Origin: Acidobacteriota bacterium
GTDB taxonomy: Bacteria > Acidobacteriota > Blastocatellia > Pyrinomonadales > Pyrinomonadaceae
Reading direction: 5' to 3'
Assembly (NCBI GenBank): GCA_025463135.1
Contig: JAOAPY010000042.1
Span: 1-35,788 of the forward strand
Length of the DNA stretch: 35,788 nucleotides
Positions 9,449 to 14,443 of the stretch are shown here, one piece after another. Position 1 is the first letter of the stretch; each line of letters opens with the position of its first letter. The notes below the pieces were generated by a model. The model was not told where the DNA came from. It ran no database searches and saw nothing but the letters and a program-made list of their open reading frames with translations. The position numbers were made by a program, and so were the translations under genes.

Positions 9449-10134
9449 ATCCCAACTCCCAAGTTTGCTAAGTTGAACTGACCCTTAATAAGTAAGGGCT
9501 GCTGAGCCTATTGGGTCGTCGCATCAACAAGCGTATTCGAATCGACACGAATAGACCCATATGAAAATTGATAGCCGGTTGCACCGGAATCTCAGATGCT
9601 TTTATCCCGGTCCCATATGTTCCCTGTCCCATTGGTCTTTATATCCCTCCCACCATTGACAGAGGGTTAGTTTATTGTACCGTTCCGTAGTCCGCGACGA
9701 AGTAACTACGTGGAGCTTTTCTCTTATGAATTCATTTCAGTGAGCAAGATATGATGCAGCGATGATGAGTGCTTAGCGTCTTGAAAAAAGTATGAGAGAG
9801 ATCTTTGACGCTCGGCTTATGCATGTCATATCCAACGATTGTCCCGCCCCATGCTCGACCGTTGAATAACCTGGTGCGCATAATGATCTCAATCATTTAC
9901 TCTGTCAATATTAATTATGTCGATGACTGTCCAGGGAGAATTGTGTCCCAGCGGCTAGGGCAAAGGCATCTGGGGCTGAGGGCTAAGCATCAATGAAACG
10001 GCGGCGGAAAGCCAAATGCCTGCGGGAAAACTGTTTTCTCGATGCGTATGATACAATCCCGGCGCTCGATGTGTTGCTTTCCCCAGTTTGCCGCACAAAA
10101 ATATTTACTGCGACGCCGTCAGGAGAATCGAAAC
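9449..10134. other. Gene-poor spacer
   Basis: About 690 bp divide the divergent WG-repeat gene and the 10135 gene. A small perfect hairpin (CCCTTA/TAAGGG) lies at 9482-9498. A TTGACA at 9656-9661 has no good -10 partner. The base composition is more AT-rich than the neighbouring genes. Short open frames near 9805-10200 lack ribosome binding sites and family resemblance. Confidence 0.5.
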
Positions 10135-11007
10135 TTGCTTCGACCCATTTCGTTCCTTATTACTCTTTGCCTGCTTGTGATCTGCTATGTTCAGCCCCTT
10201 AAGGCTCAGGACAACACTGCGAAAGAGAAGGCCGCCGCGGCCAAGCCGACATCGCAAGATACCATAGCGAAGACGGGACCAAACGCGACTCCTACCGGCC
10301 CGCAAGTAGCCGAATCAGTCATCTATGTTTATGGCAACAGCGGTGGTCGCGCCGTTCTTGACCAGATCCGGCGCAACGGCATCGAGCGCGGTAAGATAAC
10401 GCGAATCTCCGGCGACGGTCGTACAGAAGAGGCGAGCTACGAACGTCGATTCGTGCGGGGCGCGGATGCGACCAAGGACAAGGTGCGCGTCGATCAGAAG
10501 ATGCCCACCATGGAGTATTCGCTGGTTTATGGCAACGGACATTTGTGGGGAATCATCAACGGCGCCAACTTCACACCCAGGCAGGACGCCGCCGCGAGCT
10601 TTTTGTCACAACAAGTCCACAGCATCGACTCTTTGCTGCGGTACCAGGAAAACGGTTCGACGGTTACTTATGTGGACAAGCTGAAGCAGAAAGGCATCGA
10701 TCTGTACGTAGCGGATTTGACTGATAAAGAGAAGCGAGTGACTCGCTATTACGTGAGCGCCAAAACGCTTCATGTTCTTTGGCTGGAATACGAAGAGGCG
10801 CCCGAGCCTGGATCTCCACCGGTCAAATACACGCGAAGGTTTCACGACTACCGTCTGGTCCAGGGTACTCTGCTTCCTTACCGTTCAGTTCTCCTCGCAG
10901 ATGGCCGGCAGTTGCAGGAGACTCACGTTTCTTCAGTCACCTACGGCATCAAGCTGGATGACACGATCTTTCAAAATCCGGAAGCCCAGGCCAATTCAAA
11001 TCCCTGA
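10135..11007 (+). CDS. Secreted hypothetical protein
   Basis: The protein has 290 residues. A TTG start at 10135 is chosen because AGGAG lies nine bases upstream (10121-10125) and it gives a clean signal peptide (LRPISFLITLCLLVICYV, cleavage near PLKA-QD). A longer frame to 10042 has no ribosome binding site and a poor leader. The mature part starts with a Lys/Ala/Thr-rich linker, then a beta-rich domain with repeated strands (RTEEASYERRFVRG, YYVSAKTLHVLWLEYEE, YTRRFHDYRLVQGTLLPY). The repeated strand pattern recalls LolA/LppX-type lipoprotein-binding folds, but this is only an impression. It is the gene upstream of the sigma cassette. Confidence 0.6.
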   Translation: MLRPISFLITLCLLVICYVQPLKAQDNTAKEKAAAAKPTSQDTIAKTGPNATPTGPQVAESVIYVYGNSGGRAVLDQIRRNGIERGKITRISGDGRTEEASYERRFVRGADATKDKVRVDQKMPTMEYSLVYGNGHLWGIINGANFTPRQDAAASFLSQQVHSIDSLLRYQENGSTVTYVDKLKQKGIDLYVADLTDKEKRVTRYYVSAKTLHVLWLEYEEAPEPGSPPVKYTRRFHDYRLVQGTLLPYRSVLLADGRQLQETHVSSVTYGIKLDDTIFQNPEAQANSNP

Positions 11008-11109: not shown

Positions 11110-11136
11110 GGAACCGAGTTCCTCCTGGTGCGTGTA
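11110..11136 (+). promoter_or_regulatory. Candidate ECF-type promoter for the sigma cassette
   Basis: GGAAC at 11110-11114 is followed after 16 bases by CGTGTA at 11131-11136, close to the GGAAC/TGAAAC-N16-CGTnTA pattern known for ECF sigma factors. It lies about 130 bases upstream of the sigma start at 11267. The -35 is also half of a GGAAC-cga-GTTCC palindrome. Confidence 0.4.
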
Positions 11137-11266: not shown

Positions 11267-11941
11267 TTGAGCGCGTGTGAGAGCCTACCTGCCCTAATGG
11301 ACACGCTGAGTTCTATAGACGACCTGAGTCTGGGCGCCGTCGCATTGACGCCGGACGTCGCCGTGGGCTCGGCCTCTGATCACGCTTTGCTCGAGGCGAT
11401 ACGTGCCGGGAATGAAGATGCCTTCACAGAGCTGGTGGCCCGCTATCGAAATCCTATAACCAGCTACATCTATCGCATGACCAGCGACTACGATGGCGCG
11501 GTCGACCTGGCGCAGGAAACTTTTGTCCGCGTCTATCGCGCCGCGGATCGTTACCAGACAAACTATGCGTTTTCCACCTACATCTATCGCATCGCAACCA
11601 ATCTCGCGATCAGCGAACTGCGAAAACGCAAGCGGCGGAAACTTGTTTCGCTCACCGGTTTCTTTCAATCGAGTGATGGCGGTGAGCCACGCGAGTTCCA
11701 GCCCAGTGACGGCCAACCGCTGCAGGATGTGGTGCTGATTGATACCGAGCGACGCGCGGCGGTACAGCGGGCGATTGGAACGCTCCCGGACAAGTACCGC
11801 GCTCCCTTGATTCTGAGAGATGTTGAAGGCAAGTCTTATGACGAGATTTCGCACATTTTGGGGACCAGCGAAGGCACCGTGAAATCGCGAATCAGTCGCG
11901 CGCGTGGTTTCCTGCGCGACAAGATGAGGGCCTATTTGTAG
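11267..11941 (+). CDS. RNA polymerase sigma factor, ECF subfamily
   Basis: The protein has 224 residues. Region 2 is seen as AVDLAQETFVRVYRAADRY and STYIYRIATNLAISELR. Region 4 is seen as YRAPLILRDVEGKSYDEIS and SEGTVKSRISRARGFLR. The TTG start at 11267 is favoured by AAGGA nine bases upstream; the ATG at 11297 has no ribosome binding site. The first roughly 35 residues are poorly conserved. It is followed after 28 bases by an anti-sigma factor and then by an HtrA-like PDZ protein, the order sigma, anti-sigma, protease-like known from envelope-stress operons such as algU-mucA-mucB-mucD. Confidence 0.93.
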   Translation: MSACESLPALMDTLSSIDDLSLGAVALTPDVAVGSASDHALLEAIRAGNEDAFTELVARYRNPITSYIYRMTSDYDGAVDLAQETFVRVYRAADRYQTNYAFSTYIYRIATNLAISELRKRKRRKLVSLTGFFQSSDGGEPREFQPSDGQPLQDVVLIDTERRAAVQRAIGTLPDKYRAPLILRDVEGKSYDEISHILGTSEGTVKSRISRARGFLRDKMRAYL

Positions 11942-11969: not shown

Positions 11970-12779
11970 ATGATTACCAATAAATGCAAGACGATCCGTC
12001 AGGAGCTTGAAGAGGCCGATGCGGGTCATGAACCAGGAGACAATCTTGCCGTCCACTTGCGTGGCTGTTCAGATTGTCGTGCGTTTGCCTCCGAACAAAG
12101 CGCTCTGCTTGGCTTGATCGGGACTCTGGAGCCGGTGGTGGCGCCATCGGATTTTGATTTCCGCTTGCGCGCCCGTCTCGCCCGAGAAAGGAGTCGCGAG
12201 CAAAACGGCGCAGGACTGCGGAGCTTTTTGCGGATTAGCAGACCAGTGGCGGCAGCGGCGTTGGTTTTACTCGTAGCTGTTGTCGGGGTCGTTGTAAAGA
12301 ACCGTTTGACAGTTACACCGTCGCATACGACAGTCGCACCGGCTGCCACAGTGATGGTTCCGGGAGCGACCCTAGGTGGGGTCAGCATTGCAACTACATC
12401 TGATCACGAGGTTGGGAATACAGGAGGCGTGGGTACAACCGCAGGGCCTAAGCATACTGTGGCAGTGATTGGTAGTCGCGACGTGGCCGGGCAAAATAAT
12501 CGAGGGCAGAGAGTTGATCCAGCACTCGGCCGGCGCGGGCCGGGGACCGTAACTCGCGAGTTTGGCCTCACTCCGGCCTCTATAGTTGTGAGCGAAACAG
12601 ACTACTCCGGGCCAGTCGTGCGTGTGCCCCTCGATCCGCGCGCCCTGCAGATTTCGATTGACGATGGGCGAGGCGAGACACGCACAATTTCGCTGCCAAG
12701 GGTGAGTTTTGGTTCGCAGCGATTGGTCGCAACGCAGTCGTTCATGCCCACCGTCTCAACTACGAAAGGCGTTTGGTAA
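11970..12779 (+). CDS. Anti-sigma factor with zf-HC2-like domain
   Basis: The protein has 269 residues. Cys6 and H29-x3-C33-x2-C36 (HLRGCSDC) form the zinc anti-sigma motif, with the same spacing as in the first anti-sigma factor of this window. One membrane helix lies at about residues 92-109. The outside part is Thr/Val/Gly-rich, then has a conserved-looking stretch near the C-terminus (VVSETDYSGPVVRVPLDP). It probably holds the sigma factor encoded just upstream at the membrane. Release may involve cleavage by a protease; the next gene encodes a protease-like protein that lacks catalytic residues. Confidence 0.85.
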   Translation: MITNKCKTIRQELEEADAGHEPGDNLAVHLRGCSDCRAFASEQSALLGLIGTLEPVVAPSDFDFRLRARLARERSREQNGAGLRSFLRISRPVAAAALVLLVAVVGVVVKNRLTVTPSHTTVAPAATVMVPGATLGGVSIATTSDHEVGNTGGVGTTAGPKHTVAVIGSRDVAGQNNRGQRVDPALGRRGPGTVTREFGLTPASIVVSETDYSGPVVRVPLDPRALQISIDDGRGETRTISLPRVSFGSQRLVATQSFMPTVSTTKGVW

Positions 12780-12823: not shown

Positions 12824-14443
12824 TTGGCAATACTGAATTTCAAAAGACGATCATCATCGCTGCTCTTGTTGGCAGCCGTGCTTTGTTGCTGTTCTGCATG
12901 GGTGGCCGCGCAAACCACCACAACCAAAAAGCGACCGAACCCGGGTCCCGTTGTTGTTGAGCGCCAGGCTGCGGCTCCCCAGGTTATCACCGTCGTTCAC
13001 CGTATCAATGGACTCAAGATGTTGCGCCTCTTGATGCGGTCCGACGAAGGAGTGGGTGCGGTTGAGGCGATGGACCAGGCCTTTGCCATGACTGGCCAGG
13101 TGCACACGAACATTATCGCCGGACTTAGTCTGGATGACGGCGAGACTATCGCGGCCTGGTTGCCCGAAGCTGAGGTCGAAATCGAAGCTACGTTGCAGTT
13201 GGCCCCCAATGCTCCGGGGTCACGTGCGGCGTTTGTAGCGCCTCAATCGCCGATGGCATTCCCACTGCGCGGGGCGGAAACGTTGCCGGCCGGTATTTTT
13301 GCTCGACCGGATATTACGATAATCGAACGGGACGGAAAGCGGCATGAAGTTCAGTATGTAGGACTTGATGGCCTGACCGGCTTGTCGCTGCTTCACCTCG
13401 CTGAGAAAGATGCGCGCGCGCGACCGGACACCGGTGAGTTGGCAGTGGTTGTAGGCCAGCGGCTGCGTCTGTTTTCTCCGGAGCCGGTGCGAGAGGCAAA
13501 GGCTTCGACCAGCGATTCGATTTATGTGCGCATCGGTGAAACCGATGGCGAAGTTGTCAAAGTGGTGCGGGGAGCATCCGGCGAAATCAACCGTATCAGA
13601 ATCAAGTCGCTGAAGCTGACGCCCTCTAACGTTGGCGGAATCGCGATCAATGACGCGGGCCAGACGGTGGGCATCGTTGAAAGCATCGAGGGCGGTGAAG
13701 CCAACATTTTGTCTCCCAGCGTCATTCGCGCCGCAGCCGGACGTGTACTGGCGCGACAGACAAGTGTGCCGCGACCGTGGCTCGGTGTTACTGGTGAACC
13801 AGTGGCGTTCGCTTCACTGGAAAAGATTCTGGAGAAAGGATGGGAGATGCCGCGGGCGATGTCTCTGCTCCAGAAACAGCGCGGTATTCTCTTGAACTCC
13901 ATTGCCCCCGGCAGTCCGGCTGCTATTGCCGCGCTGCGCGCCGGTGACGTGATCGTTAGCGTCAACGATAACGACGTAAAGAGTAATGATGATTTTTCAC
14001 TACTGCTGACCGAGGCCGGCAGTAAGCCGGTGCGCTTTTCGATCGTTCGCCCCAACACTGAGGATGTGGAATCAATCGTCGTCAAGCTCAGCGAAGCTCG
14101 CGATCCTCTATTGCCTGTGAATAGGTTCGTTGGTCCGGCAGGCCCGCGCGCATGGTTCGCTAATCCTTTACTTGAGCATGGCATCGAAACCGTGCCGCTG
14201 CGCCCCGCCTCAAATCTCCTGACCGGGACCGCCAACGGTTGGCTGGTCGTTTACGTTCAGCCAAAGAGCGCAGCCTTCCAGGCCGGGTTGCGATCGGGCG
14301 ATGTGATCGAAGCGATTGACGGCCAAACGATCTCCGCCTGGTCCTCTTCTTCAAAACTCGTATCGACTAACGCGAACTATGACTTGAGCGTTTTGCGCGG
14401 CAAGCAAAGACTTGTGTTCAAGATAGTCGAGTCTGAGAAATAA
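12824..14443 (+). CDS. HtrA/DegP-like protein with two PDZ domains and a degenerate protease domain
   Basis: The protein has 539 residues. A basic start and hydrophobic signal segment (KRRSSSLLLLAAVLCCCS) target it to the envelope. Residues about 60-310 resemble the trypsin-like domain of HtrA, but the GNSGG motif reads SNVGG (Val270 in place of the serine). The catalytic-Asp strand reads LTGLSLL (Gly186 in place of Asp), and no NHV motif is found for the His. PDZ domains follow at about 315-425 (GSPAAIAALRAGDVIVSVND) and 455-535 (KSAAFQAGLRSGDVIEAIDG). It is therefore probably a sensor or scaffold rather than a protease. The TTG start at 12824 is the first possible after an in-frame stop at 12800; AAAAGG lies about 15 bases upstream. 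It is third in the sigma cassette. Confidence 0.8.
   Translation: MAILNFKRRSSSLLLLAAVLCCCSAWVAAQTTTTKKRPNPGPVVVERQAAAPQVITVVHRINGLKMLRLLMRSDEGVGAVEAMDQAFAMTGQVHTNIIAGLSLDDGETIAAWLPEAEVEIEATLQLAPNAPGSRAAFVAPQSPMAFPLRGAETLPAGIFARPDITIIERDGKRHEVQYVGLDGLTGLSLLHLAEKDARARPDTGELAVVVGQRLRLFSPEPVREAKASTSDSIYVRIGETDGEVVKVVRGASGEINRIRIKSLKLTPSNVGGIAINDAGQTVGIVESIEGGEANILSPSVIRAAAGRVLARQTSVPRPWLGVTGEPVAFASLEKILEKGWEMPRAMSLLQKQRGILLNSIAPGSPAAIAALRAGDVIVSVNDNDVKSNDDFSLLLTEAGSKPVRFSIVRPNTEDVESIVVKLSEARDPLLPVNRFVGPAGPRAWFANPLLEHGIETVPLRPASNLLTGTANGWLVVYVQPKSAAFQAGLRSGDVIEAIDGQTISAWSSSSKLVSTNANYDLSVLRGKQRLVFKIVESEK

Follow-up and report, generated by a model that had tools for sequence, protein, structure and literature searches.

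The sigma-E gene of Escherichia coli has a GGAAC-type promoter, and RseB and MucB combine a LolA-like domain with a second domain which binds the anti-sigma factor. In Pseudomonas, the genes for a sigma factor, an anti-sigma factor and an HtrA relative share the operon algU-mucA-mucB-mucC-mucD, in which MucD is an active protease, and the HtrA encoded by the mycobacterial sigE-rseA-htrA cluster also has a catalytic triad. According to PMC8103513, destruction of RseA in E. coli is initiated by DegS, the PDZ domain of which reads the C-termini of outer-membrane proteins. MamO is reported to be a repurposed HtrA-type protease which functions in magnetite formation by binding metal (PMC4794232).

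The locus described here is located in a window of 35,788 nucleotides, the whole stretch of DNA that was analysed (contig JAOAPY010000042.1 of assembly GCA_025463135.1, from an Acidobacteriota bacterium of the family Pyrinomonadaceae). It resembles the sigma-E/RseA/DegS/RseB system of E. coli in having an ECF sigma factor, a membrane anti-sigma factor and a PDZ protein of predicted HtrA fold, and also in the GGAAC-type promoter before the sigma gene and in the presence of a candidate site-2 protease in the genome (Peptidase_M50, 5e-61, in a frame of 466 amino acids). Unlike DegS, however, the HtrA-fold protein is predicted from its sequence to lack the triad, and unlike RseA, the anti-sigma factor bears an end resembling a PDZ ligand. 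Cutting of the anti-sigma factor by the HtrA protein, as in RseA/DegS, would not be expected of this operon, the HtrA-like protein of which appears to have no catalytic residues, and another protease may fill this role; the system is a variant of the RseA/DegS type, not a DegS. The sigma factor, anti-sigma factor and HtrA relative share an operon as in algU-mucA-mucB-mucC-mucD, but the triad present in the active MucD is gone, no other gene separates the anti-sigma gene of the window from the HtrA-like gene, and some members of the family carry a LolA-superfamily gene ahead of the sigma gene. The order of the three genes is identical to that of mycobacterial sigE-rseA-htrA, whereas the triad of the mycobacterial HtrA is missing. 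MamO (PMC4794232) is similarly a serine-protease relative turned to a non-proteolytic use, there magnetite formation by metal binding, here a link to a sigma factor. Among the matches listed in a search of titles and abstract openings, mostly of open-access literature, no description of a docked-pseudoprotease system was found.

Gene organization and its conservation

The sigma gene (11267..11941, forward strand) encodes an ECF sigma factor of 224 amino acids, containing only regions 2 and 4 of sigma-70 (Pfam Sigma70_r2 and r4_2). It is followed on the same strand by the gene for the anti-sigma factor (11970..12779), which has an HxxxCxxC domain and one hydrophobic segment near residue 92, and the C-terminal part of which is presumably periplasmic. 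The NCBIfam antisigma model matched this protein below its cut-off (6.7e-8) and the Pfam zf-HC2 model gave no match to it. Among the anti-sigma factors of the three-gene arrangement, 76 of 78 contain HxxxCxxC and 75 of 78 the hydrophobic segment, the features of a zinc-type anti-sigma factor. A second ECF sigma/zf-HC2 pair is found at 870-2760 on the reverse strand of the window, and the last residue of its zf-HC2 protein is likewise Phe (RERNF).

The third gene (12824..14443, forward strand, with a TTG start) encodes the HtrA-like protein of 539 amino acids. The initial annotation of the window had recognized in the three genes the order of envelope-stress operons, and this order was found to be conserved. 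A profile search of the bacterial family (E<=1e-40) matched 42 of 119 genomes, in 17 of 29 genera. There were 43 family loci including the window, all selected via the HtrA-like gene; six were cut by contig ends, and the order sigma, anti-sigma, HtrA-like was present in 37 of the 37 with sufficient upstream DNA. When loci of other families were read downstream from the sigma gene, an HtrA-like ORF was third in all 38 with enough DNA; the frame of the anti-sigma factor was identified in 37 of these and was not found in G043. The start codons of the relatives were set by rule and may be off. The sigma gene (E<=1e-75) was matched in 143 of the 162 genomes of the class Blastocatellia and in 47 of the 396 genomes of a phylum sample, every one from the same class. 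When the phylum was searched, a profile representing the whole class gave 24 matches of at least 209 bits, all from this class, and a remainder of at most 194 bits, a gap to be read bearing in mind that the profile was built from the same class.

Upstream of the sigma gene, a protein of the LolA superfamily (10042..11007, forward strand) was identified by a fold match of its model, and a similar LolA-type gene occupies the same position at 20 of the 42 homologous loci, although contig ends truncate some of the others. The model matched a DUF1329 structure at Z 15.6, LolA and LolB structures lower, and RseB structures at Z 7.0-7.5; as modelled, the product shares its fold with RseB, more weakly than with the DUF1329 structure, and its likeness to an RseB is confined to the fold.

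The HtrA-like protein and its catalytic positions

Two PDZ stretches were recognized in the HtrA-like protein with the family scoring above its Pfam cut-off (PDZ_6, 5.3e-18), in agreement with the two PDZ domains originally annotated. Ahead of them, Trypsin_2 matched residues 165-284 at 2.3e-4, under the curated cut-off, and the Do-endopeptidase model TIGR02037 gave 80.4 bits, not reaching its cut-off of 416.2. An AlphaFold2 model built with 19 homologues was of middling confidence (mean pLDDT 66.9, pTM 0.43) and matched the protease domains of the HtrA family, with DegS on top (VIA Z 16.5-18.4 among the 50 matches listed; 2qf3_C, for example, Z 17.8, 2.8 A across 181 residues). The protein is thus predicted to consist of a trypsin-like fold and two C-terminal PDZ domains, two of the traits of HtrA/Deg (S1C) proteins. 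The trypsin-like domain would comprise residues ~48-313 (12965..13762, forward strand), the DegS protease-domain matches covering residues ~41-315 of the model. PDZ1 (residues ~314-424, 13763..14095, forward strand) was placed by Pfam and by alignment of its loop, and PDZ2 (residues ~448-539, 14165..14440, forward strand) by Pfam and by profiles cut from the family alignment. WLGV in PDZ1 stands at the place of the carboxylate-binding loop, where HtrA-type PDZ domains hold the carboxylate of the ligand. A WLGV-type loop was present in 33 of 33 proteins of the bacterial family and in 33 of 37 from other families, where the four misses were mis-cut rows and the count is biased towards the motif, the rows having been cut at the loop-motif match. 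A long Glu/Ala-rich stretch, perhaps a coiled coil, separates PDZ1 and PDZ2 in some genera (L057, L061, L063 and L064, by eye). Named relatives of the protein are found in records of Pyrinomonadaceae and further Acidobacteria.

The protein was aligned with four catalytic HtrAs, two of which are encoded by the genome of the window, and in the columns of their His, Asp and Ser it has Pro114 (13163..13165), Gly186 (13379..13381) and Val270 within SNVGG (13631..13633, all forward strand). The two replacements first noted, Gly186 and Val270, were confirmed together with their residue numbers, and the His position, for which no NHV motif had been seen, is taken by Pro114. The catalytic His was found in none of the 74 homologues compared, Gly occupies the Asp column in 73 and Trp in one, and the four which have Ser at the Ser position do not have it within G[ND]SGG. 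An intact His-Asp-Ser triad with GNSGG, sought by alignment, occurred in 0 of the 74, a count made without loci cut by contig ends, without G025 (shifted 3' part) and without the fused anti-sigma factor G007, and with four rows settled in a second pass, three by alignment and G052 by eye. The two outcomes which the annotation had held against its proposal, a predicted structure with no trypsin-like fold and homologues with an intact triad, thus did not appear.

Among 23 class-wide homologues aligned, the invariant positions include His59, Gly100 and Gly186, suggesting that the fold is under constraint. Of these, His59 (12998-13000) closes the first strand and is distinct from the catalytic His. 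Its invariance could be cited for a protein which still cuts with catalytic residues located elsewhere, but with Gly in 73 of 74 proteins in place of Asp and Ser at its position in only four, never within G[ND]SGG, this is extremely improbable. Decay of a pseudogene was considered and ruled out by the same Gly together with the three invariant positions. As no intact triad was present among the homologues, which are spread over several families, the pseudoprotease state appears to be old.

The C-terminal end of the anti-sigma factor

The anti-sigma gene of the window ends with codons for Gly-Val-Trp (12768..12776, forward strand), a proposed PDZ ligand. The last residue was hydrophobic in 78 of the 78 anti-sigma factors of the three-gene arrangement, being Trp in all 40 from the bacterial family and Phe (27), Leu (7), Tyr (3) or Ile (1) in the 38 from other families; G043, in which the anti-sigma frame was not found, is not in this count, and G155, the contig of which ends before the third gene, is. 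As a control, 17 other zf-HC2 proteins with complete ends from the same genome were read; the last residue is aromatic in two of them and Trp in none. A patch resembling FG[AS]Q is located 14-25 residues ahead of the C-terminus in 69 of the 78, compared with an FG-type patch in 0 of 2 anti-sigma factors of genus g23 and 3 of 38 with a fused PDZ domain. The hydrophobic C-terminus, which is a new finding of this work, looks like the pattern of a PDZ ligand.

The last residue of Omp85 proteins was Phe in all 30 ends read out of 43 matches, all families included. Plain mimicry of the family's own outer-membrane ends was unsupported, as the tail ends in Trp and the Omp85 proteins in Phe, and is too simple as an explanation.

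Loci without PDZ1 or without the pseudoprotease

In the two species of genus g23 the partner protein has no PDZ1, its trypsin-like domain being accompanied by a single PDZ domain of the PDZ2 type. The anti-sigma factors of this genus end in QH or EQ, a hydrophobic C-terminus being present in 0 of 2. Since the trypsin-like domain and PDZ2 are retained in the absence of the tail, docking of the tail cannot be the sole link between the two proteins.

Ten further genera of the family gave no match to the pseudoprotease at E<=1e-40, a cut-off which also missed the diverged G133, so that a distant relative elsewhere in these genomes is possible, and the DNA read downstream of their anti-sigma gene contained no trypsin-like stretch. 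Instead, these genera have a longer anti-sigma factor with a terminal PDZ domain, detected with the PDZ2 profile in 37 of 39 loci; in G072 and G115 no PDZ2 stretch reached the threshold. The fused PDZ passed a Pfam cut-off in four of the five anti-sigma factors scanned, and the last residue of the fused proteins was hydrophobic in 2 of 38. HxxxCxxC is missing from most of them, being present in 9 of 38 (L172, L179, L184 and others).

The PDZ2 profile outscored the PDZ1 profile for all 38 fused proteins (mean 21 bits). Four of six control PDZ proteins also favoured the PDZ2 profile (mean 7), with PDZ2 scores above those of most fused proteins. Proof that the fused PDZ descended from PDZ2 of the pseudoprotease was thus not reached, generic PDZ domains scoring equally well or better. 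The fused PDZ is nearer to PDZ2 than to PDZ1, although PDZ1 is the proposed dock.

Arrangements were assigned to 122 of the 143 genomes of the class with the sigma gene. On a quick tree of the sigma factors from these 122 genomes, the three arrangements require three state changes, with G007 placed apart; of the 40 fused-type rows, G065 was included by assumption, its contig stopping short of the anti-sigma gene. When the fused rows were united in a single clade, the tree fitted better and was not rejected (p-AU 0.79), so two independent fusions are not claimed, only one or two. The joint losses are therefore few events, one for PDZ1 and the tail and one or two for the fusions, and the counts of genomes are not independent. 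As read from these sequences, each of the few events runs in the direction predicted by docking of the tail to PDZ1.

The tail could alternatively be the recognition end for another PDZ protease, of the S41 type or a catalytic HtrA, with which the pseudoprotease competes or which it accompanies. PDZ domains recognize the final 3-4 residues of target proteins (PMC8103513), and the genome of the window encodes at least two HtrAs with GNSGG. We consider this explanation unlikely, as the tail is missing where PDZ1 or the pseudoprotease is missing, whereas matches of HtrA length, candidate HtrAs, persist in tail-less genomes of the fused type, such as G085 and G111.

Promoter and regulon

A putative ECF promoter, GGAAC-N16-CGTG(TA), was identified by motif search before the sigma gene (11110..11136, forward strand). 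Of 35 family cassettes, 34 have GGAAC-N16/17-CGTG ahead of the sigma gene, compared with 0.39 expected from shuffles which preserve base composition only; spacings of 14-18 were permitted and 16 or 17 found. The one cassette without it, G022, is also without PDZ1. Among L119-L164, 36 of 45 further loci had the motif, as did 5 of the 39 fused-type loci. The sigma factor of the cassette probably reads this motif.

A fuller promoter pattern occurs at four sites in the genome of the window and at two in the reversed control, and because of this ratio only one gene, encoding a protein with two PDZ domains (L255 1560-2630, contig C14 of the same genome), was used as a member of the regulon. The fuller pattern lies 32 bases ahead of this gene, and the motif was found before the corresponding gene in 16 of 20 relatives (0.16 expected), in five of the 16 overlapping a mechanically chosen start codon. 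The two-PDZ protein is apparently a member of the same regulon as the cassette.

Location of the HtrA-like gene in the sigma operon, behind a promoter of the type the sigma factor would read, and the apparent presence of the two-PDZ protein in the same regulon would also be expected if the pseudoprotease were a periplasmic chaperone which the regulon produces and which does not touch the anti-sigma factor directly. This is quite improbable, as it leaves unexplained the tail, its loss together with PDZ1, and the PDZ domain which the anti-sigma factor itself bears in loci without the pseudoprotease.

Discussion

The sequence comparisons give good support to the view of the protein as a true pseudoprotease with a tie to the anti-sigma factor, through the gene order, the loss of the triad in 74 of 74 homologues, the tail, the joint loss of PDZ1 and tail, and the PDZ-fused anti-sigma factors. 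The initial annotation had proposed that the protein may sense misfolded envelope proteins and control the anti-sigma factor without cutting it, or may tether another protease, and given this tie, control without cutting is the likeliest reading, in which the binding itself is the inferred element.

Starting from the gene order, triad loss, predicted fold, tail, joint losses, fusions and promoter motif seen in the sequences, we regard it as somewhat probable that the secreted non-catalytic HtrA paralogue is a periplasmic partner docked on the tail of the anti-sigma factor, gating release of the sigma factor by another protease. The C-terminus of the anti-sigma factor would dock into PDZ1, and the FG[AS]Q-like patch may rest on the trypsin-like body of the pseudoprotease. 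The docked anti-sigma factor would be either shielded from a separate site-1 protease or presented to it; the site-1 cut would be followed by that of the site-2 protease. PDZ2 would be the likely site at which the envelope signal is read, and release or rearrangement of the complex would free the sigma factor, which would then raise expression of its own operon and of the two-PDZ protein. The sign of the docking effect, the signal and the protease are the parts of this mechanism which we infer.

By analogy with DegS, the ends of outer-membrane proteins are obvious candidates for the signal. A more specific version, possible but doubtful, is a ligand-displacement switch, in which the tail mimics outer-membrane ends in a PDZ domain of the dead protease and stray ends displace it, upon which another protease destroys the anti-sigma factor; in part of the family, fusion of a PDZ straight onto the anti-sigma factor would be a shortened form of this system.

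Envelope-stress sigma factors have been understood through a protease which both senses and cuts. If the ligand-displacement switch is true, a single protein without catalytic activity would combine sensing of the DegS kind with shielding of the RseB kind. The binding part has seemingly been kept across several families of one class while the cutting part is inactive, and the lineage-specific losses of parts, of PDZ1 with the tail or of the whole partner, allow the functions of the PDZ domains to be tested directly by means of peptides and small domains. The cassette suggests an envelope alarm which is run by binding and not by cutting.
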